Source: a bacterium (GTDB taxonomy: Bacteria > Lernaellota > Lernaellaia > JACKCT01). From it: DNA of 40,314 nucleotides. The notes beneath the pieces were generated by a model. The model had not been told where the DNA came from. It worked only from the letters and a program-made list of their open reading frames with translations, and did not search any database. Positions 14,633-40,063 of the stretch are shown here, in pieces. Position numbers and translations under genes: made by a program. The stretch is taken from assembly GCA_019912885.1 (NCBI GenBank), contig JAIOHV010000008.1:1-40314 (forward strand), written 5' to 3'. Positions within the stretch are counted from its first letter, which is position 1. Every line of letters starts with the position of its first letter.

Positions 14633-16475
14633 GACTCATTTTCGACAGTGAAATTTTGAAAGCAGCGTCTTTTCAGCCAGTTGCGGGCGCTGGTGTCGGG
14701 TTTACCACTACATTTCGGTTGTCGGTAGGGGGTTAACGGCGGGCGGGGGCCTCAGTCCGGCGGCGGCGAAGGCTTGGTGGGCGGCGCCGACGAGGTCGGT
14801 GCGCAGGCGGTACTCGCGACCGTCCAGTTCCAAGTGGATCGCCTGGACGCGCTTCAAGTCGCGCATCAAGTCGAGCCAGGGCGTTTTGGCGCCGCGTTCG
14901 TCGAGTCGCCTTTGCAGATCGACCTCCAGGCGCAGCGCGAGGAAGGACGCCACGATGTGGCCGATGCGCGTGTCGTCGTTGTGGTGAAAGAGCGGGCGCA
15001 ATTCGAGCGTGGATTTCTGCTCGCGAAACGTGCGTTCCACGCGCCACAGGCCCTTGTAGGTTTTGACGACCTCGGCCGCGGGCAGGTCGGTGTTGGTGCG
15101 CAGGACGAAGACGCCGTCGTAGAGCGCGTCGTCCTTCGCCTTTTGGAAGTCGATCCGCCAGGAGCCCTTCTCGCCTTTCAGGAATCGGCGATACCCGGTG
15201 TTTCCGACGAGGCTCTTCGACTCGCCGGCTTCGAGTTTTTCCATGAGCGACTGGACCATCGCCTCGCGCGCGGCGGCGTCCTTTTTCGCCTCGACCTCGT
15301 TGTAGCAGACGACGTAGCGCTTGCCGTCGAGCGTCCGCTCCGCGACGCCGAGGCCGGGCGCGATCTCGTCGAACTCACGCGTCATGTGCAGCAGGTCCGT
15401 CACGTCGAGGTCCCGGCGCATGCGGCAGCCGAGGATGAAATCGAACGGCGCCTCTTTATCCCCCGTGAGCAGCTCGATCGAGTCCTTCGAGATCATGCCG
15501 CGATCCGCCACCACGACGACGCGCCGGATCTGAAAGCGCTCGCGAAGGCGCGTGACCACGTGCGAGAAGGCGTCCTTGTCCGCGGTGTTGCCGGGAAAGA
15601 CCTCCCACGCGATCGGCCAGCCGTATCGATCCACCGCGACGCACAGCACCATCTGCGGCAGGTCCGGCCGCTTGTCGCGGGAGTAACCGCGTTTGCAAAA
15701 CGCCGTCTCCTGGTCGCGATAGACGTACGTGCTCGTCGTGTCCAGGAAGACCAGGTCAATCTCCTGATGAAACAGGTCGCGATCACGATGGAAGAGCGTG
15801 CGCTCCAATTCCTCGCGGACCTCGGCAAGCCACCCCACGGCGCGGTACATCTGGTGCAGGCCGATCTCGGGCAGACCCTCGACGTCCTTCAACCACTCCG
15901 ACCCCTGAAGATCGCTGCCCGGCTCGCACAACCGCTGCAACGCCAGCGCGAAGGCCACGCGCTCCGGGTCAAAGGCGAACTTGCGCCCCGCCGCCAGGCT
16001 CCTGAGCACGTGCGGCAAACCCTGCCGCTCCCACAAACGGCCGAAAACCAGCGCCGGACCCCAGCAGCGCGTCACGCAGTGATCGAAACGGCCTTCCTGA
16101 AACGCAAGAAACGCCGCATTCGCCTCGGAAAAGCGGGCCAGCGCCGCGGTAATCCGGTCCAACTCGCCCGACGCCCTCAACTCATCGAGCCGCCCGAGGT
16201 TTGCCACGACCTTCTGCCGAACCTTGCCGTCCTGGCGAAACGCCTCGACGATTTGCAGGTATTCGTACGAATGGCCCTTGGAATGGACGATCTTGGTCCT
16301 GACAAACATGCGCGCATGATAGCCGGATCGCGGAACAAGGCAAGGGATAAACGCGGCGGGTTTGCACTACATTTTCGACGTTTTCGCACCCAAGCAACCC
16401 GTAAGTACCTGAAATCGCTCAGGTCAGGTCATGCAAAATCGGCCGCAATTGTCGAAAATGAGTCGAAAATGAGTC
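14633..16475 (-). mobile_element. IS1634-type insertion sequence
   Basis: A complete transposase gene is bracketed by a perfect 15-bp inverted repeat, GACTCATTTTCGACA at 14633-14647 and TGTCGAAAATGAGTC at 16450-16464. The last 11 bp (GAAAATGAGTC) are repeated once more to 16475, so the right boundary is either 16464 or 16475. No flanking direct repeat is obvious. A similar segment, CACTACATTT(T)CG, occurs near both ends in direct orientation (14707-14718, 16365-16377). Confidence 0.75.
14708..16309 (-). CDS. IS1634-family DDE transposase
   Basis: A 533-residue transposase of the IS4 superfamily. The catalytic triad is visible as FLDTTSTY (first Asp), VVVADRGMIS (second Asp) and YKGLWRVERTFREQKSTLEL (Glu in the YREK-type motif). 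HHNDDTRIGHIVASFLALRL follows, as expected in IS1634 relatives. The N-terminus KGHSYEYLQIVEAFR and VVANLGRLDEL are also typical. The ORF is intact, full length and GC-rich like the host genome, so the element may still be active or be a recent arrival from a similar genome. Confidence 0.93.
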   Translation of the reverse strand: MFVRTKIVHSKGHSYEYLQIVEAFRQDGKVRQKVVANLGRLDELRASGELDRITAALARFSEANAAFLAFQEGRFDHCVTRCWGPALVFGRLWERQGLPHVLRSLAAGRKFAFDPERVAFALALQRLCEPGSDLQGSEWLKDVEGLPEIGLHQMYRAVGWLAEVREELERTLFHRDRDLFHQEIDLVFLDTTSTYVYRDQETAFCKRGYSRDKRPDLPQMVLCVAVDRYGWPIAWEVFPGNTADKDAFSHVVTRLRERFQIRRVVVVADRGMISKDSIELLTGDKEAPFDFILGCRMRRDLDVTDLLHMTREFDEIAPGLGVAERTLDGKRYVVCYNEVEAKKDAAAREAMVQSLMEKLEAGESKSLVGNTGYRRFLKGEKGSWRIDFQKAKDDALYDGVFVLRTNTDLPAAEVVKTYKGLWRVERTFREQKSTLELRPLFHHNDDTRIGHIVASFLALRLEVDLQRRLDERGAKTPWLDLMRDLKRVQAIHLELDGREYRLRTDLVGAAHQAFAAAGLRPPPAVNPLPTTEM

Positions 16476-16581
16476 TAGGCGATTTTGCACGGGCGACTCA
16501 ATAAGTGCCGCAGATTTTTGCGGCCTCGAATCACCGAACCGAGTTTTTTTCAACAACTCATCGCCCGTTACTTTCAGAAAT

Positions 16582-17085
16582 TCAACCACCACCGTCGCAG
16601 TCCGGTTGAACAAAGAAATCGAGTTGCACAACCGTCTGTTTTAGTAGCTGATCCACGTCAACTCCGTCAGATGCGCTTATATCACAGGTGCCGTGGCCAT
16701 ATCGATCAATGGACACTATTACTCTGTCACCCCCTTCGATAAGTTCAGATTCTATATCGATATAGTAGTAACCGCTCGCATTGCTATTTATAGCGTAATA
16801 GTCGACGTCCTGTTGAAACGGCGGCTCACAGCTTTCATCTTCGAAGCGATTGCACGGATAATACCACACATGAATCTCCGCATCGCTTACATAACCCTTT
16901 ATATCTCCGTTATCCTTCTCTAGAAAAATACGCCCCCATATCCTTACGGAATCTTTTGGAAGCGGCACCAGCCCGAAAGGATAAATCGCGATAGCACCAG
17001 CGTTTCCACCACCGCCCGTGTCGCAACCAAAGATAACGATATAAACGACATAAAATAAAACTATGATAAATATTCTCGGCTTCAT
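16582..17085 (-). CDS. Small AT-rich lipoprotein, unknown function
   Basis: A 167-residue predicted lipoprotein: MKPRIFIIVLFYVVYIVIFGC gives a hydrophobic signal with Cys21 as the lipid site, followed by a Gly-rich spacer (DTGGGGNAG). The mature part reads like a carboxypeptidase-regulatory or transthyretin-like beta-sandwich (IWGRIFLEKDNGDIKGYVSDAEIHV, then NASGYYYIDIESELIEGGDRVIVSI), a fold common in surface lipoproteins. That call is tentative. Base composition is much AT-richer than the rest of the window, suggesting transfer. Its ATG overlaps the stop of the upstream ORF (ATGA at 17085-17082), so the two are probably translated together. Confidence 0.7.
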   Translation of the reverse strand: MKPRIFIIVLFYVVYIVIFGCDTGGGGNAGAIAIYPFGLVPLPKDSVRIWGRIFLEKDNGDIKGYVSDAEIHVWYYPCNRFEDESCEPPFQQDVDYYAINSNASGYYYIDIESELIEGGDRVIVSIDRYGHGTCDISASDGVDVDQLLKQTVVQLDFFVQPDCDGGG

Positions 17086-17315
17086 TTCAGCCTCTCCGCA
17101 AGCGGACGACCAAACGGGATTCCAAATCCATCGTAGCGTTTTTCTCGTTGATCCCGATAATAATCGTCGTACTCTTCCCAAATTAGCGTCCGATAATAAA
17201 ACATATCTCTTACTTCTCGTCTTTCCTCGCTCCATCTTCGGGCAATTACTTGATTATCTGCCCTGACGATATTAAAATTCGCATATGTGATTTTTCTCGA
17301 CGGGTCCTCTCCCAT
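17082..17315 (-). CDS. Unrecognised ORF coupled to the lipoprotein, possibly a truncated C-terminal fragment
   Basis: A 77-residue ORF rich in charged and aromatic residues (ARRWSEERREVRDMFYYRTL, WEEYDDYYRDQREKRYDGFG). It overlaps the next gene by ATGA. The same frame is open a little further upstream (RCIAANQAG before the Met). A different frame of 17323-17456 reads as protein-like sequence, so a one-base indel may have split a longer gene. No family is recognised. No good ribosome binding site precedes the ATG, which supports the fragment view. Confidence 0.45.
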   Translation of the reverse strand: MGEDPSRKITYANFNIVRADNQVIARRWSEERREVRDMFYYRTLIWEEYDDYYRDQREKRYDGFGIPFGRPLAERLK

Positions 17316-17456
17316 ACCGGCCTGATTCGCGGCGATGCAGCGAAACGATTAACTGGACGATCGCGATCGAAATATCCGATTTCATGATCACGGTGCCGAT
17401 GAGCCCATCGTTCGTTATGTATATCATTGGCGGGGTCATCCGGGTTTTCTACATTT
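17316..17456 (-). pseudogene. Possible upstream part of the frameshifted gene ending at 17082
   Basis: In a frame offset by one from the downstream ORF, this stretch reads VENPDDPANDIHNERWAHRH, then RDHEIGYFDRDRPVNRF, without stops. A single-base change near 17339-17343 would join it to RCIAANQAGMGEDPSRK in the downstream ORF. It ends upstream at the 65-bp tandem repeat. This rests only on reading-frame appearance. Confidence 0.3.
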
Positions 17457-17460
17457 GTGT

Positions 17461-17585
17461 AAAATAGGGGACAGTCACCTATTTTTTCCCTCGAATCGAA
17501 GGAAAAGGCGCGACATGACCGAGGTAAAATACGGGACAGTCACCTATTTTTTCCCTCGAATCGAAGGAAAAGGCGCGACATGACC
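17461..17585. repeat. 65-bp tandem repeat with GGGACAGTCACCTATTTT motif
   Basis: Two 60-bp copies (17461-17520 and 17526-17585) differ by one base and are separated by GAGGT. Each contains GGGACAGTCACCTATTTTTT and an imperfect hairpin TTTTCCCTCGA/TCGAAGGAAAA. From memory, the GACAGTCACCTATTTT sequence resembles repeats linked to REP-associated tyrosine transposases in other genomes; no such transposase is present here. Confidence 0.9.
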
Positions 17586-17992
17586 GTGGCGCGTTGTCGG
17601 TTCGTAACGCGTTTCACGAACGCACCTCTCCGGCGCTTGCCAGGGTGTCGCCATCTGCTTGAGGTCGTGTGCGTCTCCTTCGGGTTCCACGTCCCCACGC
17701 CATCCGACGGATTGAACGGGCTGCCGTCCGTGCTGTCGTCGTTGTTCTCGCTGAACACTTCGCAGACGATCCTCAATAAGGAGCTTTCGCCGACGCACAG
17801 GCTACGACGAAGCGTGGCGTCCTGGGTATAGGGGTTGGTCGTACCCGCCTTCACGTGGATCGTCGTCACGTCCGTGATCAGCCCCGTAATCAGGCTGAAA
17901 ACGCCCGTGAACGTCTGCTTCGCGGTGGCCCAGCTTAAGCCATCGCCCGTGTCGTCCGGCCGGTCCGCACTAACATAAAATTCCGTGGCCAT
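17540..17992 (-). pseudogene. Truncated N-terminus of a parallel beta-helix type surface protein
   Basis: The ORF starts at an ATG with GGAGGGG upstream and reads MATEFYVSADRPDDTGDGLS, then WATAKQTFTGVFSLITG and IHVKAGTTNPYTQDATLRRS. This matches the DUF1565/right-handed beta-helix N-terminal pattern (YYVSPxGxDxNDGLSWATA). After about residue 110 the sequence turns into Arg-rich low-complexity residues and ends inside the 65-bp repeat, whereas such proteins normally run for several hundred residues. The gene therefore appears cut off by whatever brought in the repeat. It lacks a signal peptide. Confidence 0.65.
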
Positions 17993-18448
17993 AACCCCTC
18001 CGTTTGGTTTCGGCTCCGGAGGGTTTCGGCTCCGGAGCGGTTCGGCCCCGGAGCGGTTCGGCCCCGGAGCGTCTTTAAAGAGCGTTTAATATACGTCTAT
18101 CATGACGGAAATGCCGTGTCAAGTGAAAAATATCGCGATCGGCAACAAACATCACGGCGGCCGAATGACAACGCCTTAAGGAAATAGGTTAACGCAGCGC
18201 GTCATATTCAAGGCGGACATAACATTAAGGTTCGAAATACACGTGAATTCAAGTAGATGGGTGACGATTGTTAATACTCCGACGCCGCGCCCGGAAATTC
18301 AAAACGACACGCGAGATGGCAAGGTCGGTTTGCGAGTTGAATTCGGGTGGGACGCTTGCGCTCCCGGGGCCGATCCTTCGGCTGCGCCCCAAGAGACTTT
18401 CCGCGGACCCAGGATATGTGCCGAACTGGGGCTCGGCGTTCCCAGGTA
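17993..18448. other. Non-coding gap with tandem CTCCGGAG repeats and a candidate promoter
   Basis: No gene is supported. Reading the minus strand, TTGACA (18122-18117) has no good -10 at 17 bp but has TATATT (18093-18088) at 23 bp, so the promoter call for the truncated gene is weak. The remainder (18125-18340) is AT-richer than average and featureless apart from GAATTC-containing short repeats near 18243 and 18340. Confidence 0.5.
18006..18070. repeat. Four tandem copies of a 16-17 bp palindrome-containing unit
   Basis: Units GGTTTCGGCTCCGGAG, GGTTTCGGCTCCGGAGC and two of GGTTCGGCCCCGGAGC run head to tail just upstream of the truncated gene's ribosome binding site. The first two contain the 8-bp palindrome CTCCGGAG; the last two carry the variant CCCCGGAG. 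The spacing of roughly 1.5 helical turns and the location are compatible with an operator array, or with a simple tandem expansion. Confidence 0.85.
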
Positions 18449-20001: not shown

Positions 20002-20358
<357 letters not shown>

Positions 20359-20423
20359 CCCTCCTTCGGGTGTTGATCCGCAACAAGGGCGCGGCCCGCG
20401 AAGAGTCCGCGCGATTTCGGCGC

Positions 20424-20451
20424 ATTTAACACGGGTAGCGCGAAGAATCAA
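20424..20451 (-). promoter_or_regulatory. Candidate sigma70 promoter for the small lipoprotein
   Basis: On the minus strand TTGATT (20451-20446) is followed after 16 bp by TTAAAT (20429-20424), in an otherwise GC-rich setting, about 66 bases upstream of the start codon. Confidence 0.5.
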
Positions 20452-20715: not shown

Positions 20716-23397
20716 TTATCGGCAAGCGTCGCACGCGGTCTCGCACGCCGACGAAAGACGAACCGGGGGCGCTCCGAGCGGCGGATGGCTTCCCTGCACG
20801 TCGGTTTCGTCTCCGAAGTCGTCCTGATTGTCCGAGGGCGTTCCCGCGTTCGTCCAGGTGGCGAAGCGGATCGGCGGCAGGTTTTCCTGGAAGTCCAGAC
20901 CTTCCGCCTGCGGGATCATGAAGAACAGGAAGTTGTCGATGACGTCCACCGTCGCGTTCGTCAACTGCGGCTGGAACTCGCCGAGCACGGCATCGAACCG
21001 GAAGATGTTCCACTGCTGATTATTGAAGGCCGCGATGTACACGCGATCCGAATCGTGCGGCGGTCCTTCGCCCTCGTAGTTCTGGCCGAAAGGATCCACG
21101 TCGATGGCGAAGTAGAACTCGAAGAATCCCGGGCCGCTCAACGGCAAGATGGCCGCCATCTGCATGTACGCCACGACGTAGTCCGTGATCGTTCCGACGC
21201 CGTAAAAGAGGATGTCGAGGATCGGCAGGTCGCCCGGCGTTCCGGTTCCTTCCCAGAGGAATTCGTCATCCGGCGGGTCCTGCCACGACTCGTCAAGCGT
21301 TTCGCAGACGCAGTTGCAATCCGAGCCGTTGTGACGCTGCGGATCGGATCGGCCGCCGCCGTAGCGCTCCTCCGCCCACTTCATCGCCTCCTCGGGCGAC
21401 ACCGTGCCGTCGCCGTCACCATTGGGCGGATTGTCGGCCTGGTTGTCCTTGAACGCGTCCCAGAACGCGTTGGACACGTAGCTGCCGTCGCCGTTTCGCT
21501 GGCCGTAAGACGACTTGTCCTTGGAGGCCGAGGTCAGGATGTTCACGCCGGGGATCGCCATCGAGTCGTCACCCTCCGTGAAATTGCCGGAATGGCAGCT
21601 CTGGATGATGAGGTTCGTGTTGCAATAGCCCGGCTGCCGGCACTCGCCCGCGTAATAGTTCATCGGATTCGGGCAATGCGGATTGGCGGTGAGCAGATCG
21701 TTGATATCCTTGACTGTCACGCGGCCGTGGCCATTTTGCGCGGCGATGTAGCCGCTCGAACCGCCGTGGCCGACGATATAGAGCCAGTTTTCGTCCAGGC
21801 ACAGCCCGGCGTCGAAGAACGCCTCGATCGCCGCCTTCGCCTCGGCGGCCGTCGGCTTGTCGAGGTATTCGACGTTCTCCTCGCCGATCTTCTTGCCGAA
21901 AAACGCATTGGCCTTCTCGCCGTTACGTTTCATCCAGCCCTTGCCCGGGGCGTCGCCGAGGTTGATGACGAGCGCACGGCAAACCGTCGGTATCGGGATG
22001 TTATCGGTCGAGCAGATGTACACGCAGCCCTCGTCCACGTCTTCGGTCGGGTCGTCGCCGTCCGGGTCTTCCGGATCGGGCGGGCCGTCGTCATCGTCGT
22101 CGTCGTCCGCGTCGTCGTCGGGATCGGTATCGTCGTCGTCATCATCGTCGTCGTCGTCGCCGTACCAGGACAGGAAGTTGAAGTAGTGGTCCTCGATCTC
22201 GCCGTGGCCAAACTCGCCGGAGCCGTCCCAGCCGTCTTCGCCGAACGGATCGCCGTCCACCTCCTCGCGCGTCAGCGAGACGCGGATCCACGACTCCCAC
22301 CCGAACTTGCCGTTGGTGACCGGATACTCGACCGGGTCGGTGAGCACCCACTTCGACTCGCCGGGCGCCACGTCATCGACCGGGAAATTCTGCACGAGCC
22401 ACTCGACACCGAGGTTGTTGCGCTTCCACTCGCCGTCGCGGTTCGTGTCCACGAGGATATTGATGTAGCGCGTGGTGTCCGGCGCGTCTTCGTGCACACT
22501 GACCTTCACCAGGAAACGCACCGTCAGCTCGAAGGTCTGCGGATCGATATAGAACTGCCAGTATACCTCGTTGTCCTTGTCGTTGTTGACGAGGTTCGGA
22601 ACGCCGTCCGGATCGGCCGGATCGTCCGCGTCTTCCTCGCCGGAGACATCGTCGCCGATCCACTCCTCGTCCCACACGAGCGTGTGGCCGCCGGGGCGGT
22701 CGTTGATCGAGTTGTCCGTGTTCCACAGCGTCGGGAAATGGCCGTCGATGTCGCCAATGACGTAAGCGCCGACGTTGCCGGGATCGAGCGTGTCGTCCGG
22801 CGCGTCGCCGTAGTCGCCCTCGGGGCCGCCGAGCTTGGGCCGGGCGCCGCTCTTGGACGAGCCCGTCACATCTTCGGTGATCGGCGAGAACATGCGTACG
22901 ATTTCCACGTCCGCGACGAATAGCCCCGTGTCGTTCAGCACCGGCCACCAACGCTGATTCTCGACGTCCATCGAGCCGGTGTCGGGGTCGGTATACACGA
23001 AGCGTGCGTCGTGTTCGTAGTCCGCGAACGGCTGATCGTCGAGGAATGCAAACCAGTAGTCGCCGTCCGGCGCGTCCGTCTCGCCGTCGTAGGGTTCGAG
23101 CGTGTCGCCCGCGCCAAGCTTGCTTGCGACGGCATAGGCCACGAACGCGCCGTCATCCGGATCGCCGCTCGTGTCGAGCTGTTCGACGATGCGCGTCAAA
23201 AGCGCCTGGACATCGGGCACCTCGCCGGCGTCGTCATCGTCGTCGTCGTCATCGTCGCCGCCGAGGCTGTCGTCGTCGTCCGCGTCATCGTCGTCGCCGC
23301 GGTCATCGTCGTCGTCATCGTCACCGCATGAGCATCCGGCCGAAACGGCCAGGGCGATGCCCAAAAGAAACACCAGAAAAAACCGGAACCGTGCCAT
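20716..23397 (-). CDS. Large Asp-tract lipoprotein with GEVED-like and caspase-like peptidase domains
   Basis: An 893-residue surface-type lipoprotein. The signal ends in VSAGC (Cys22), then SCGDDDDDDDRGDDDDADDD and a second Asp run (to about residue 60). Residues about 190-290 resemble a GEVED domain (GDYGDAPDD, DGHFPTLWNTDN, DEEWIGDDVSGEEDADD). A second Asp-rich hinge lies at about 415-455. The following region has a caspase/legumain-like fold: WLYIVGHGGSSGY supplies the candidate catalytic His544 and NLIIQSCHSGNF the candidate Cys601. A perfect EF-hand-type loop sits at 659-670 (NGDGDGTVSPEE), as in some calcium-dependent clan CD peptidases. The last 200 residues look beta-rich. Presumably it is a secreted or surface Cys protease with a flexible acidic stalk. 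Substrate is unknown; orientation on the outer membrane is inferred. Confidence 0.82.
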   Translation of the reverse strand: MARFRFFLVFLLGIALAVSAGCSCGDDDDDDDRGDDDDADDDDSLGGDDDDDDDDDAGEVPDVQALLTRIVEQLDTSGDPDDGAFVAYAVASKLGAGDTLEPYDGETDAPDGDYWFAFLDDQPFADYEHDARFVYTDPDTGSMDVENQRWWPVLNDTGLFVADVEIVRMFSPITEDVTGSSKSGARPKLGGPEGDYGDAPDDTLDPGNVGAYVIGDIDGHFPTLWNTDNSINDRPGGHTLVWDEEWIGDDVSGEEDADDPADPDGVPNLVNNDKDNEVYWQFYIDPQTFELTVRFLVKVSVHEDAPDTTRYINILVDTNRDGEWKRNNLGVEWLVQNFPVDDVAPGESKWVLTDPVEYPVTNGKFGWESWIRVSLTREEVDGDPFGEDGWDGSGEFGHGEIEDHYFNFLSWYGDDDDDDDDDDTDPDDDADDDDDDDGPPDPEDPDGDDPTEDVDEGCVYICSTDNIPIPTVCRALVINLGDAPGKGWMKRNGEKANAFFGKKIGEENVEYLDKPTAAEAKAAIEAFFDAGLCLDENWLYIVGHGGSSGYIAAQNGHGRVTVKDINDLLTANPHCPNPMNYYAGECRQPGYCNTNLIIQSCHSGNFTEGDDSMAIPGVNILTSASKDKSSYGQRNGDGSYVSNAFWDAFKDNQADNPPNGDGDGTVSPEEAMKWAEERYGGGRSDPQRHNGSDCNCVCETLDESWQDPPDDEFLWEGTGTPGDLPILDILFYGVGTITDYVVAYMQMAAILPLSGPGFFEFYFAIDVDPFGQNYEGEGPPHDSDRVYIAAFNNQQWNIFRFDAVLGEFQPQLTNATVDVIDNFLFFMIPQAEGLDFQENLPPIRFATWTNAGTPSDNQDDFGDETDVQGSHPPLGAPPVRLSSACETACDACR

Positions 23398-37312: not shown

Positions 37313-40063
37313 TCAGCTTTCGGGGACGAACGCCTTCATTGTCACCGTCGCATCCAGGATCGGCTGCGGCGCGTGCGGCATCTCGTAGTATTCGCCGTCA
37401 AGCCACATCTGCATCAGGTCCAGCTCGTTCGGATCGCCGGCCACGGGCTTCATGCCGCCGGGGATGTGCGCCCAGGTCGTGATCGCGCCGTCCTCGAACT
37501 GATGAATGATACGCAGGCTCGGCCCGGAGCCGACGGTGTACCCGCCAAGGCCCGACGCGTTCGCCACGTTGACCGTGTACAGGCCGCCGCTGCGCGCGAA
37601 CGGGCCGCGGTTGAAGATGTCGATGCCGAACGGATCGAACGCGATGTGCGACAGTGACACGACGTGCAGCCGACCCCAAAACCACTCGTCCATATCGACG
37701 CCGTCGAACGCGGGCGCCGGATCGAGATCGCGGCGCTTGTAGGTCGGAATCGCGGCAAGCGCGTCCGCAAGGGCCGCAAGTACGGTGTCACGCCGGTCTT
37801 CCGTGCCGCCCGTTGAGGTGTCGTCAAAGACATCGTCCTCGACGCCCGCCTCGAGCAGCCACAGAAGCGCAAGCCGCGTCGCCTCGCTGCGCGACACGCT
37901 ATCGAGCCCCGCGTCGTCGAACTCGTCCGCAAAGGTGTTCTCGATGAGTTGCGACTCGAACTCCGCGAAGATCATCGCCGCGACCGCGTCGTTGCGCTCG
38001 TCCTCGTCGGACGACGGCGCGCTCGATGCCGGGTCGTCGCCGTCAAGACCGGTCACCGCGTTGCCGCTCCAGTTCGCCAGGTATTCGAGCGCGTCCTGCT
38101 GATCGGCCGGCAGGGCGCCCGGATCGCCGATGATGTCGAGGACCGCCTCAAGCCAGCGCGCGGCGTACATCCAGTAGATGTCGAGCTGCGTCGCCATCAT
38201 CGAATCCAGCGTGAAGCCGCCGTCGTTCATCTGCTCATCGAGCAACGCCTCGATGCGCGCCGCGCGGAAGCCGATCGCGCGTTCGACGTACCAGTAATGC
38301 TCGTCGTTGATCGGATTGCCGTCCACGAGCGTGCCGTAGATGTCGTTGTTCGCCGTCGCGATCCACCCGCGATCCGGGTTCTGGATGCGTGCGACGTCGC
38401 TTGCGGGGATGAAGCCGTCCCACTCCGCGCTTCCGTCGCCGGGCAGCACGAACCACGGCTTGTAAGTATCCAGATCCCAGTCGCGGTTCGGCACGTTCGC
38501 GTTCGGGAAATAGCCGATGTTGCCCTGCGTGTCCTGAAGGACGAAGTTCTGCGCGCCGACCTTGAAGTTGTCGACCGCCTCAAGGCCCGCCGTCACGTCG
38601 CCCGCGCGATGCAGGCCGTCGAACGCCTTGGCCTCCTGCGTCGGCTCGTGGCCGGTCCAGCGGAACGACAGCGCCGTCTCGGCGTCCGTGTCGATGCTGT
38701 CCGGGATGATCGGCCCGTGGTGCGGCACGAGGTAGATGTCGCGCATCTCGGGCGTGTCGTCATGCAGCGCGTAGAATTCCTCGCTCACCTTGATGACCGG
38801 AACGGTGCCGCCGTCGAAATCGACGCTCACCGGCTCGTCGCCGGAGAAGTTGACGTTCTCGGCGTACACGTCGAGCACGTCATAACCCGCCACGGTTTCG
38901 CCCCAGGCGAGGTTGTCGTTCGCGCCGATGACCACAAGCGGCGTGCCGGGGAAGATCGAACCCCACGCACGCACCCCGCCGCCGCCGCCCAGCTCCTTCG
39001 TGTCCATGTAGCCAAGGATGAAGATCGACGGGAACGTCAGCGAAAGATGCGGATCGTTCGCGAGGAACCCCACGCCGCCGTTGATGTCCGGCGAGAGCGT
39101 CCAGTTGTTGCTCGCGCGACGTTCCGCGCCGGCGATCGCGCCCCATTCCTTCGCTTCACGCACGCGGGCGATCGCGCGCGACAGGCCCTTGAATCCGTCG
39201 GGCAGCACCTTCGCCATTTGTCCCGCGTGATACGGAGCGGACTTCTTGGCCATGTCGCCGTCCTTCAGCACCGTGGTGTCCTCGGCGATGCCCGTGGGAA
39301 ACGCCTTGGCGTAAAGCGCCGCGCCGAGCGCGTCCGCGCGCTCGGTGTTGGTCATGTCGTCGCCGAGCGATTCGGAAAGATCCCAGGTCTGATAGCGCGC
39401 GATGGACAGCGTATCGCGCACGGTCCAGTCGGGCACCTGGTCGGGCGAAAGCGCCACGAAGCCGTATTCCTCCGGCCACGGCGTTTCTTCCGCCGGCCAC
39501 ATTTCGCGGATATCGGCAAGCCACGCGTTCACGCCCTCGGCGTACGCGTGGATGTAATCGTTCAGGGCGGGGTCGAGATCGTCCTCGATCTTGTCGAGCA
39601 CCGATGTGCCGTCGGAGGACATGAACGCGGCGCGTTGATAGACATCGGTGTCGATCGCGATCGAACCGGCGATCTCCGCGATGCGCCCTTGCGCGAGGCG
39701 CCGCAGGAAGTCCATCTGGAAGATGCGGTAGCTCGCCTCGACGTACCCGAGCACGCGCGCGAGATCGAGGTCCGATTCGGCGAACACGTACGGGATGCCG
39801 AGGCTGTCAACCGCGACGCGCGCCTCGCCGGTCATGCCGGGAAGTTCGATCGTCTCGTCGACAGGGTAATCGAGCACGGGCGAGCTGTCGTCGTCGTCAT
39901 CCGCGTCGTCGTCGCCCTCCGTGTCGTCGTCGTCGTCATCCGTCGGGACGCCGCCGTCGTCGTCATCGTCGTCGTCGCCGCACGAGCAGCCCGGCGCGAA
40001 CAGCGCGAGCGCGAGCAGCGTCACCAGAACACCGAACATCTTGATCCACGAACCCTTGGTCAT
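37313..40063 (-). CDS. Penicillin acylase-family Asp-tract lipoprotein (N-terminal nucleophile hydrolase)
   Basis: A 916-residue precursor. The signal ends in FAPGC (Cys26), followed by SCGDDDDDDDGG and more Asp runs to about residue 60. The acylase A-chain region follows (ARVAVDSLGIPYVFAESDLD, LGYVEASYRIFQMDFLRRLA, QGRIAEIAG). The B chain would begin at Ser318 after autocatalytic cleavage: SNNWTLSPDINGGVGFLAND is the family's SNNW nucleophile motif. Other conserved parts are GANDNLAWGETV, HHGPIIPDS and NRDWDLDTYKPWFVLPGDGS. Relatives cleave beta-lactams, bile-acid amides or acyl-homoserine lactones; the substrate here is unknown. The ATG follows GGGAGG at good spacing. The acidic stalk suggests display at the cell surface. 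Confidence 0.92.
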   Translation of the reverse strand: MTKGSWIKMFGVLVTLLALALFAPGCSCGDDDDDDDGGVPTDDDDDDTEGDDDADDDDDSSPVLDYPVDETIELPGMTGEARVAVDSLGIPYVFAESDLDLARVLGYVEASYRIFQMDFLRRLAQGRIAEIAGSIAIDTDVYQRAAFMSSDGTSVLDKIEDDLDPALNDYIHAYAEGVNAWLADIREMWPAEETPWPEEYGFVALSPDQVPDWTVRDTLSIARYQTWDLSESLGDDMTNTERADALGAALYAKAFPTGIAEDTTVLKDGDMAKKSAPYHAGQMAKVLPDGFKGLSRAIARVREAKEWGAIAGAERRASNNWTLSPDINGGVGFLANDPHLSLTFPSIFILGYMDTKELGGGGGVRAWGSIFPGTPLVVIGANDNLAWGETVAGYDVLDVYAENVNFSGDEPVSVDFDGGTVPVIKVSEEFYALHDDTPEMRDIYLVPHHGPIIPDSIDTDAETALSFRWTGHEPTQEAKAFDGLHRAGDVTAGLEAVDNFKVGAQNFVLQDTQGNIGYFPNANVPNRDWDLDTYKPWFVLPGDGSAEWDGFIPASDVARIQNPDRGWIATANNDIYGTLVDGNPINDEHYWYVERAIGFRAARIEALLDEQMNDGGFTLDSMMATQLDIYWMYAARWLEAVLDIIGDPGALPADQQDALEYLANWSGNAVTGLDGDDPASSAPSSDEDERNDAVAAMIFAEFESQLIENTFADEFDDAGLDSVSRSEATRLALLWLLEAGVEDDVFDDTSTGGTEDRRDTVLAALADALAAIPTYKRRDLDPAPAFDGVDMDEWFWGRLHVVSLSHIAFDPFGIDIFNRGPFARSGGLYTVNVANASGLGGYTVGSGPSLRIIHQFEDGAITTWAHIPGGMKPVAGDPNELDLMQMWLDGEYYEMPHAPQPILDATVTMKAFVPES

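Follow-up and report, generated by a model that had tools for sequence, protein, structure and literature searches.

We propose that the open reading frame (ORF) at 20716..23397 on the minus strand of the window (the whole stretch of DNA analysed, 40,314 nucleotides) encodes a lipid-anchored, extracytoplasmic clan CD peptidase of C13-like type that carries a calcium-type loop and, at its N terminus, a dedicated accessory domain, a reading to which we assign a probability of about 0.7. The enzyme type is already known, and the unnamed N-terminal domain is the new part. The ORF is confirmed, with exact coordinates, strand, and length (893 aa). The original prediction named the correct enzyme class and got part of the architecture right, and it overlooked the conserved domain at residues 58–172.

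All features of the protein lie on the minus strand. A signal peptide and lipobox, judged by eye (residues 1–22, 23332..23397), end in Cys22 preceded by S-A-G, which supports the predicted placement of a lipoprotein outside the cytoplasm. A first, interrupted Asp tract (residues 26–56, 23230..23322) completes a C-S-C-G-D(n) head that is common to other proteins. The conserved N-terminal domain (N-domain; residues 58–172, 22882..23226), defined by profiles, alignment, and a structure model, is followed by a DYGDAPDD...DEEWIGDDVSGEEDADD block (residues 194–276, 22570..22818), in which GDYGDAPDD occupies residues 194–202 and DEEWIGDD residues 243–250. A GEVED-like domain (residues 311–407, 22177..22467) and a second Asp tract (residues 414–437, 22087..22158) lead to the peptidase domain with its Cys-rich tail (residues 472–699, 21301..21984). 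The C-terminal region (residues 720–893, 20719..21240) belongs to no family and is mainly beta in the predicted model. The lipobox and both Asp tracts are present as described, and GHGG with His544 (21766..21768), QSCHSG with Cys601 (21595..21597), and the loop at residues 659–670 (21388..21423) lie where they had been placed from the sequence.

Membership in clan CD is well supported by C13 profile matches together with structural matches to caspases. Searched as a fragment, residues 460–695 matched Peptidase_C13 (PF01650) with E = 0.0012 and 18.9 bits, under the Pfam cut-off of 22.8, and in a genome search two homologous loci (L002 and L003) scored 30.6 and 25.0 bits, above that cut-off. The peptidase domains of all five family members matched PF01650 (best 3.5e-8). 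The NCBIfam EACC1-associated caspase model matched the window protein with E = 9.5e-5, far under its cut-off, and an alignment of the family profile with yeast metacaspase-1 (E = 0.075) spanned GHG as well as SCxSG. Neither the window protein nor the other family members had a Pfam match to Caspase C14 (PF00656). Of the profile families named in the original prediction, C13 matched with the window protein itself under the cut-off, C14 did not match, and GEVED stayed below its cut-off. Full-length queries returned no match in Pfam or PDB sequence searches, probably because of length and Asp bias, and it was fragments that gave matches.

An AlphaFold2 model of the full protein built with five sequences had a mean pLDDT of 47, with block means of up to 84 in the peptidase core. 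Compared with the PDB by Foldseek, this low-confidence full-length model returned caspases at the top (probability 1.00, best E = 8.6e-4), which points to the caspase-hemoglobinase alpha/beta fold and agrees with the structural likeness that had been anticipated. The segments LYIVGHGG and LIIQSCHSG, each behind a hydrophobic strand, carry the clan CD motifs and are invariant. Taken with the C13 profile matches and the invariant His and Cys, these results bear out the predicted clan CD peptidase. Within the clan, we assign the protein as C13-like rather than as a proven C13 peptidase, with His544 and Cys601 as its predicted catalytic dyad.

Similarities to known clan CD enzymes were spread across several families. 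As in C13 (legumain, GPI8; PF01650), the HG and Cys motifs lie on successive strands, a TSA-x(4)-SSY-like segment follows the Cys, and two orthologues exceed the Pfam C13 cut-off. However, the residue at position −2 from the catalytic Cys is Gln in the window protein and Glu in legumain, and a C-terminal prodomain of the legumain type was not recognised here; the N-domain, GEVED-like insert, EF-hand-type loop, and lipid anchor are further additions to the C13 plan. Caspases and metacaspases (C14) share the matched fold, and their motifs are close (caspase IIQAC and metacaspase DSCHSG, compared with IIQSC in the window protein), but the window protein lacks a Pfam C14 match, and no sign was seen of caspase-like processing into subunits. 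Gingipain (C25) and clostripain (C11) are also secreted bacterial clan CD enzymes, calcium-dependent or calcium-bound, and gingipain has an N-terminal pro-region. These two differ in their Arg/Lys specificity, and they showed no sequence match and no relation to the N-domain.

In caspases, the S1 pocket is lined by the Gln of QACRG, a position at which metacaspases have Asp, and by an Arg from the loop that follows strand 1. All five family members conserve Lys/Arg491-Asn-Gly together with Gln599-Ser-Cys601, and in our own reading of the alignment, Arg491 and Gln599 would occupy the positions of the caspase S1 Arg and Gln. On this reading, P1 is predicted to be Asp or Asn, and cleavage after Arg or Lys is less likely. 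Our literature search returned no biochemical data on a close relative, and legumain-like peptidases of bacteria seem to have received little attention in the open-access literature searched.

Homologues were present in three related genomes, with 49% identity over the whole alignment for L002 and L003 (same family as the window genome), 47% for L004 (another family of the same class), and 39% for a paralogue, L008. One scan of genome contigs yielded one orthologue only. In the remaining three genomes of the class (G004–G006), the peptidase profile had no match, and a plasmid search found no plasmid-borne copies. His544 and Cys601 are invariant in the four homologues (39%–49% identity) and in the aligned distant relatives, and in the five-member family so are Gln599 and, two residues past the Cys, the SG. 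Because the first strand was misplaced when distant relatives were aligned with GEVED-bearing proteins, we kept those alignments for the dyad and EF columns only, not for structure. The DYGDAPDD block is retained by L002, L003, and L004 and is absent from L008, which also lacks the first half of the GEVED-bearing insert. Similarly, the second Asp tract is Asp-rich in L002–L004 and reduced in L008. A Cys cluster after the peptidase core (residues 694–698) has C694, C696, and C698 invariant in L002–L004 and L008, and other invariant Cys precede it; disulphides or a metal site are possible. Orthologous loci had no conserved neighbour of the peptidase gene beyond generic regulators, and an operon partner was rejected for this reason.

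The loop behind the catalytic core resembles a calcium-binding EF hand. The sequence NGDGDGTVSPEE follows the DxDxDGx[ILV]xxxE spacing, and its position is conserved: the homologues have TGNDDGEVTPEE, NGDDNGEVSNEE, NGNDDGEVDPQE, and GGNADGHVSPDE at the position of residues 659–670, and distant relatives carry a loop at the same place (L072, DTNMDGIVDMYE; L065, DSDDDGTVTAHE; L071, DMNGDGHVSYYE). The loop had been described as perfect, which holds for the spacing of N659-G-D-G-D-G-T-V-S-P-E-E670 but is slightly strong given that the first residue is Asn. Across 32 peptidases with the N-domain, the strict pattern was found in 13 compared with 0.03 expected by shuffling, a search that covered the 110 residues after the catalytic Cys, with several of the 32 loci ending earlier. 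The loop is therefore a conserved feature of much of the group, though not of all branches. Its likely role is to bind Ca2+ and so stabilise or activate the enzyme, and calcium gating of the peptidase is conjecture.

The N-domain is an accessory domain associated with clan CD peptidases across distant bacteria. No Pfam or NCBIfam model covers residues 58–172, and our literature search gave no relevant description of the domain or of a bacterial C13 peptidase with an EF-hand. Modelled alone, the domain consists of one helix and seven strands (pLDDT 92.3, pTM 0.86), and in alignment H129 and P152 are invariant and D120 is nearly so. Foldseek returned nothing significant for this fold in the PDB or a viral library; the comparison spans these two collections, and we do not claim a new fold. 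A PepSY- or cystatin-like fold was considered and rejected, as the top PDB matches were at chance level (E > 1, TM < 0.3).

A profile of residues 58–172 found the N-domain in nine loci (L064, L065, L067–L069, L071–L073, and L094; E < 0.01 in a small set) and, as a tenth and borderline match, in L077, all from a set gathered solely by C13 or C13-like peptidase matches. With the N-domain alone as query, searches of 386 genomes and then of three phyla located it at 36 distinct places, spread over 27 genomes and 17 families. A clan CD peptidase lies downstream in the same ORF in 26 of the 36 (peptidase profile E < 1e-3), including 13 ORFs that belonged to the N-domain seed. Six places have the His and Cys motifs without profile support (L114, L115, L118, L119, L121, and L127), and two have a peptidase that continues in another frame (L112 and L132). 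At the other two (L110, and the 220-aa ORF of L135/L139), the N-domain stands alone in a small ORF, with a clan CD peptidase gene immediately downstream. The peptidase profile was trained on the five members of the family, eight relatives with the N-domain, and two further C13-like proteins, and beyond the N-domain ORFs it matched only three, which neighbour L110, L112, and L132. The N-domain was seen only before or directly upstream of clan CD peptidases, which makes a dedicated role as helper or safety catch probable, although the seed was drawn from C13 matches and the exclusiveness of the association may be overstated.

Some details of these loci are worth recording. Separate N-domain ORFs directly upstream of the peptidase gene occur in two unrelated genomes, the pair of neighbouring ORFs lying at nucleotides 1372–1869 and 1848–3296 in L110 and measuring 220 and 493 aa in L135. 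The neighbouring peptidase in L135/L139 carries an N-domain of its own too. The frameshifts between N-domain and peptidase in L112 and L132 may be assembly errors. A small unnamed domain beside such peptidases in 17 bacterial families offers a handle on their folding or inhibition, and its profile should help to annotate those secreted clan CD peptidases whose Pfam scores are too weak.

The region between the N-domain and the peptidase contains a weak match to GEVED (PF20009), with 16.6 bits (E = 0.014) in the window protein and 17.8–18.7 bits (E = 0.003–0.006) in three orthologues, all under the cut-off of 24.4. GEVED domains have been defined as parts of fibrillar adhesins (PMC10952558). The window protein shares with GEVED proteins the GEIED motif and a weak profile match over the full length, but here the match is paired with a peptidase rather than an adhesin repeat stalk. 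A GEVED-like region is supported at this sub-threshold level (residues ~311–407), and its signature is G399-E-I-E-D403, not the DYGDAPDD block that had been read as such.

The acidic head, originally interpreted as a special stalk, is better described as a lineage-wide lipoprotein feature. C-x-C-G-DDDD heads occur at no fewer than 79 places in the window's genome and at 33 and 57 in two relatives, compared with zero in 14 outgroup genomes and zero with a reversed control pattern. A looser pattern found 32 heads in G004 and 13 in G005 (family f3, same class), and since f3 has heads without the peptidase, the two are independent. Sampled carriers included a penicillin amidase, an imelysin, and a PKD-domain protein. 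Many heads in the window's genome run on into acidic (DDDT/DDDA)n linkers, on proteins that are otherwise unrelated (e.g., L040–L059). For surface display in Bacteroidota, acidic residues immediately behind the lipidated Cys suffice, and the export signal (C-S-D-D-D-D) is likewise shared by unrelated lipoproteins (PMC5080379). By this analogy, the CSCG-D(n) head may be a surface-sorting signal. It differs in its form, C-x-C-G-D(n), in being much longer, and in belonging to another phylum. The head is a second lead, concerning lipoprotein sorting in an uncultured candidate phylum.

Together, these features suggest a protein that would be exported by Sec, anchored by the lipid on Cys22, and probably routed to the cell surface by its acidic head. 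His544 and Cys601 would act as the catalytic dyad, the EF-type loop would bind Ca2+, and residues 58–172 would most likely serve as a prodomain, either chaperoning the peptidase or restraining it. Pro-regions commonly restrain clan CD enzymes, several of which require Ca2+ (PMC4357240), and a prodomain or chaperone is the likeliest role for the N-domain. However, the GEVED-like insert lies between the N-domain and the peptidase, a separation that is unusual for a classical propeptide and argues against a prodomain. A more specific version holds that residues 58–172 are a new clan CD-specific family of prodomains or folding partners, with a fold absent from the PDB and, in some cases, a gene separate from that of the adjoining peptidase. 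In this lineage, the domain would tether the peptidase to the membrane until self-cleavage in the Asp-rich linker frees it. We regard this version as tentative and somewhat improbable.

Self-release is also conceivable as a special case of our main reading, in which the zymogen cuts after Asp in the linker at residues 414–437, sheds the peptidase, and leaves the lipid and N-domain on the cell. The caspase-like S1 positions Arg491 and Gln599 fit such cleavage, as does an Asp-rich linker before the peptidase in four out of four full-architecture members, but the specificity is deduced from sequence, the L008 linker has little Asp, and long Asp runs are generally poor protease substrates, so we consider self-release unlikely. 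More doubtful still is that the protein is an inactive clan CD homologue, with GEVED-like and C-terminal beta regions acting at the surface as a binding or adhesin scaffold. This would suit the description of GEVED in fibrillar adhesins (PMC10952558) and the degenerate motifs of some distant N-domain relatives (SGHSG/ETCYAE in L118 and AHATG/DACFSG in L115). However, inactive copies usually lose the dyad, and His544, Cys601, Gln599, and SG are invariant in the family.

Two further roles for the proposed lipid-anchored peptidase seem very unlikely. The abundance of Asp-tract heads in this genome and its relatives, beside an enzyme with a predicted acidic P1, could indicate a sheddase of the cell's many Asp-tract lipoproteins, but this is weakened by G004 and G005, which bear heads and have no relative of the peptidase. 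A dedicated attack role, such as predation or toxin maturation, was part of the original prediction and draws on extracellular location and protease class only. We give it equally little credence, as conserved neighbours are absent from orthologous loci and no toxin or secretion partner lies beside the gene.

Elsewhere in the window, G+C content falls to 0.52 at 16001–18000, beside a DDE transposase ORF (14708–16309, minus strand), and ORFs 16582–17235 and 17540–17992 belong to no family. The FEN-1099 candidate phylum (Ca. Lernaellota / Podoxiota), the likely host group, has a reported G+C content of 61.5%–64.3% (PMC11382960), which fits the window. Just downstream of the peptidase gene, a small Cys-rich ORF (20002–20451, minus strand), antisense to plus-strand ORFs, has an Asp-tract head (VVACGDDDDDDDDDDDDAGDDDDDAS). 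A second Asp-tract lipoprotein, a penicillin amidase at 37313–40063 on the minus strand (PF01804, E = 5.9e-140), begins with the head CSCGDDDDDDD.
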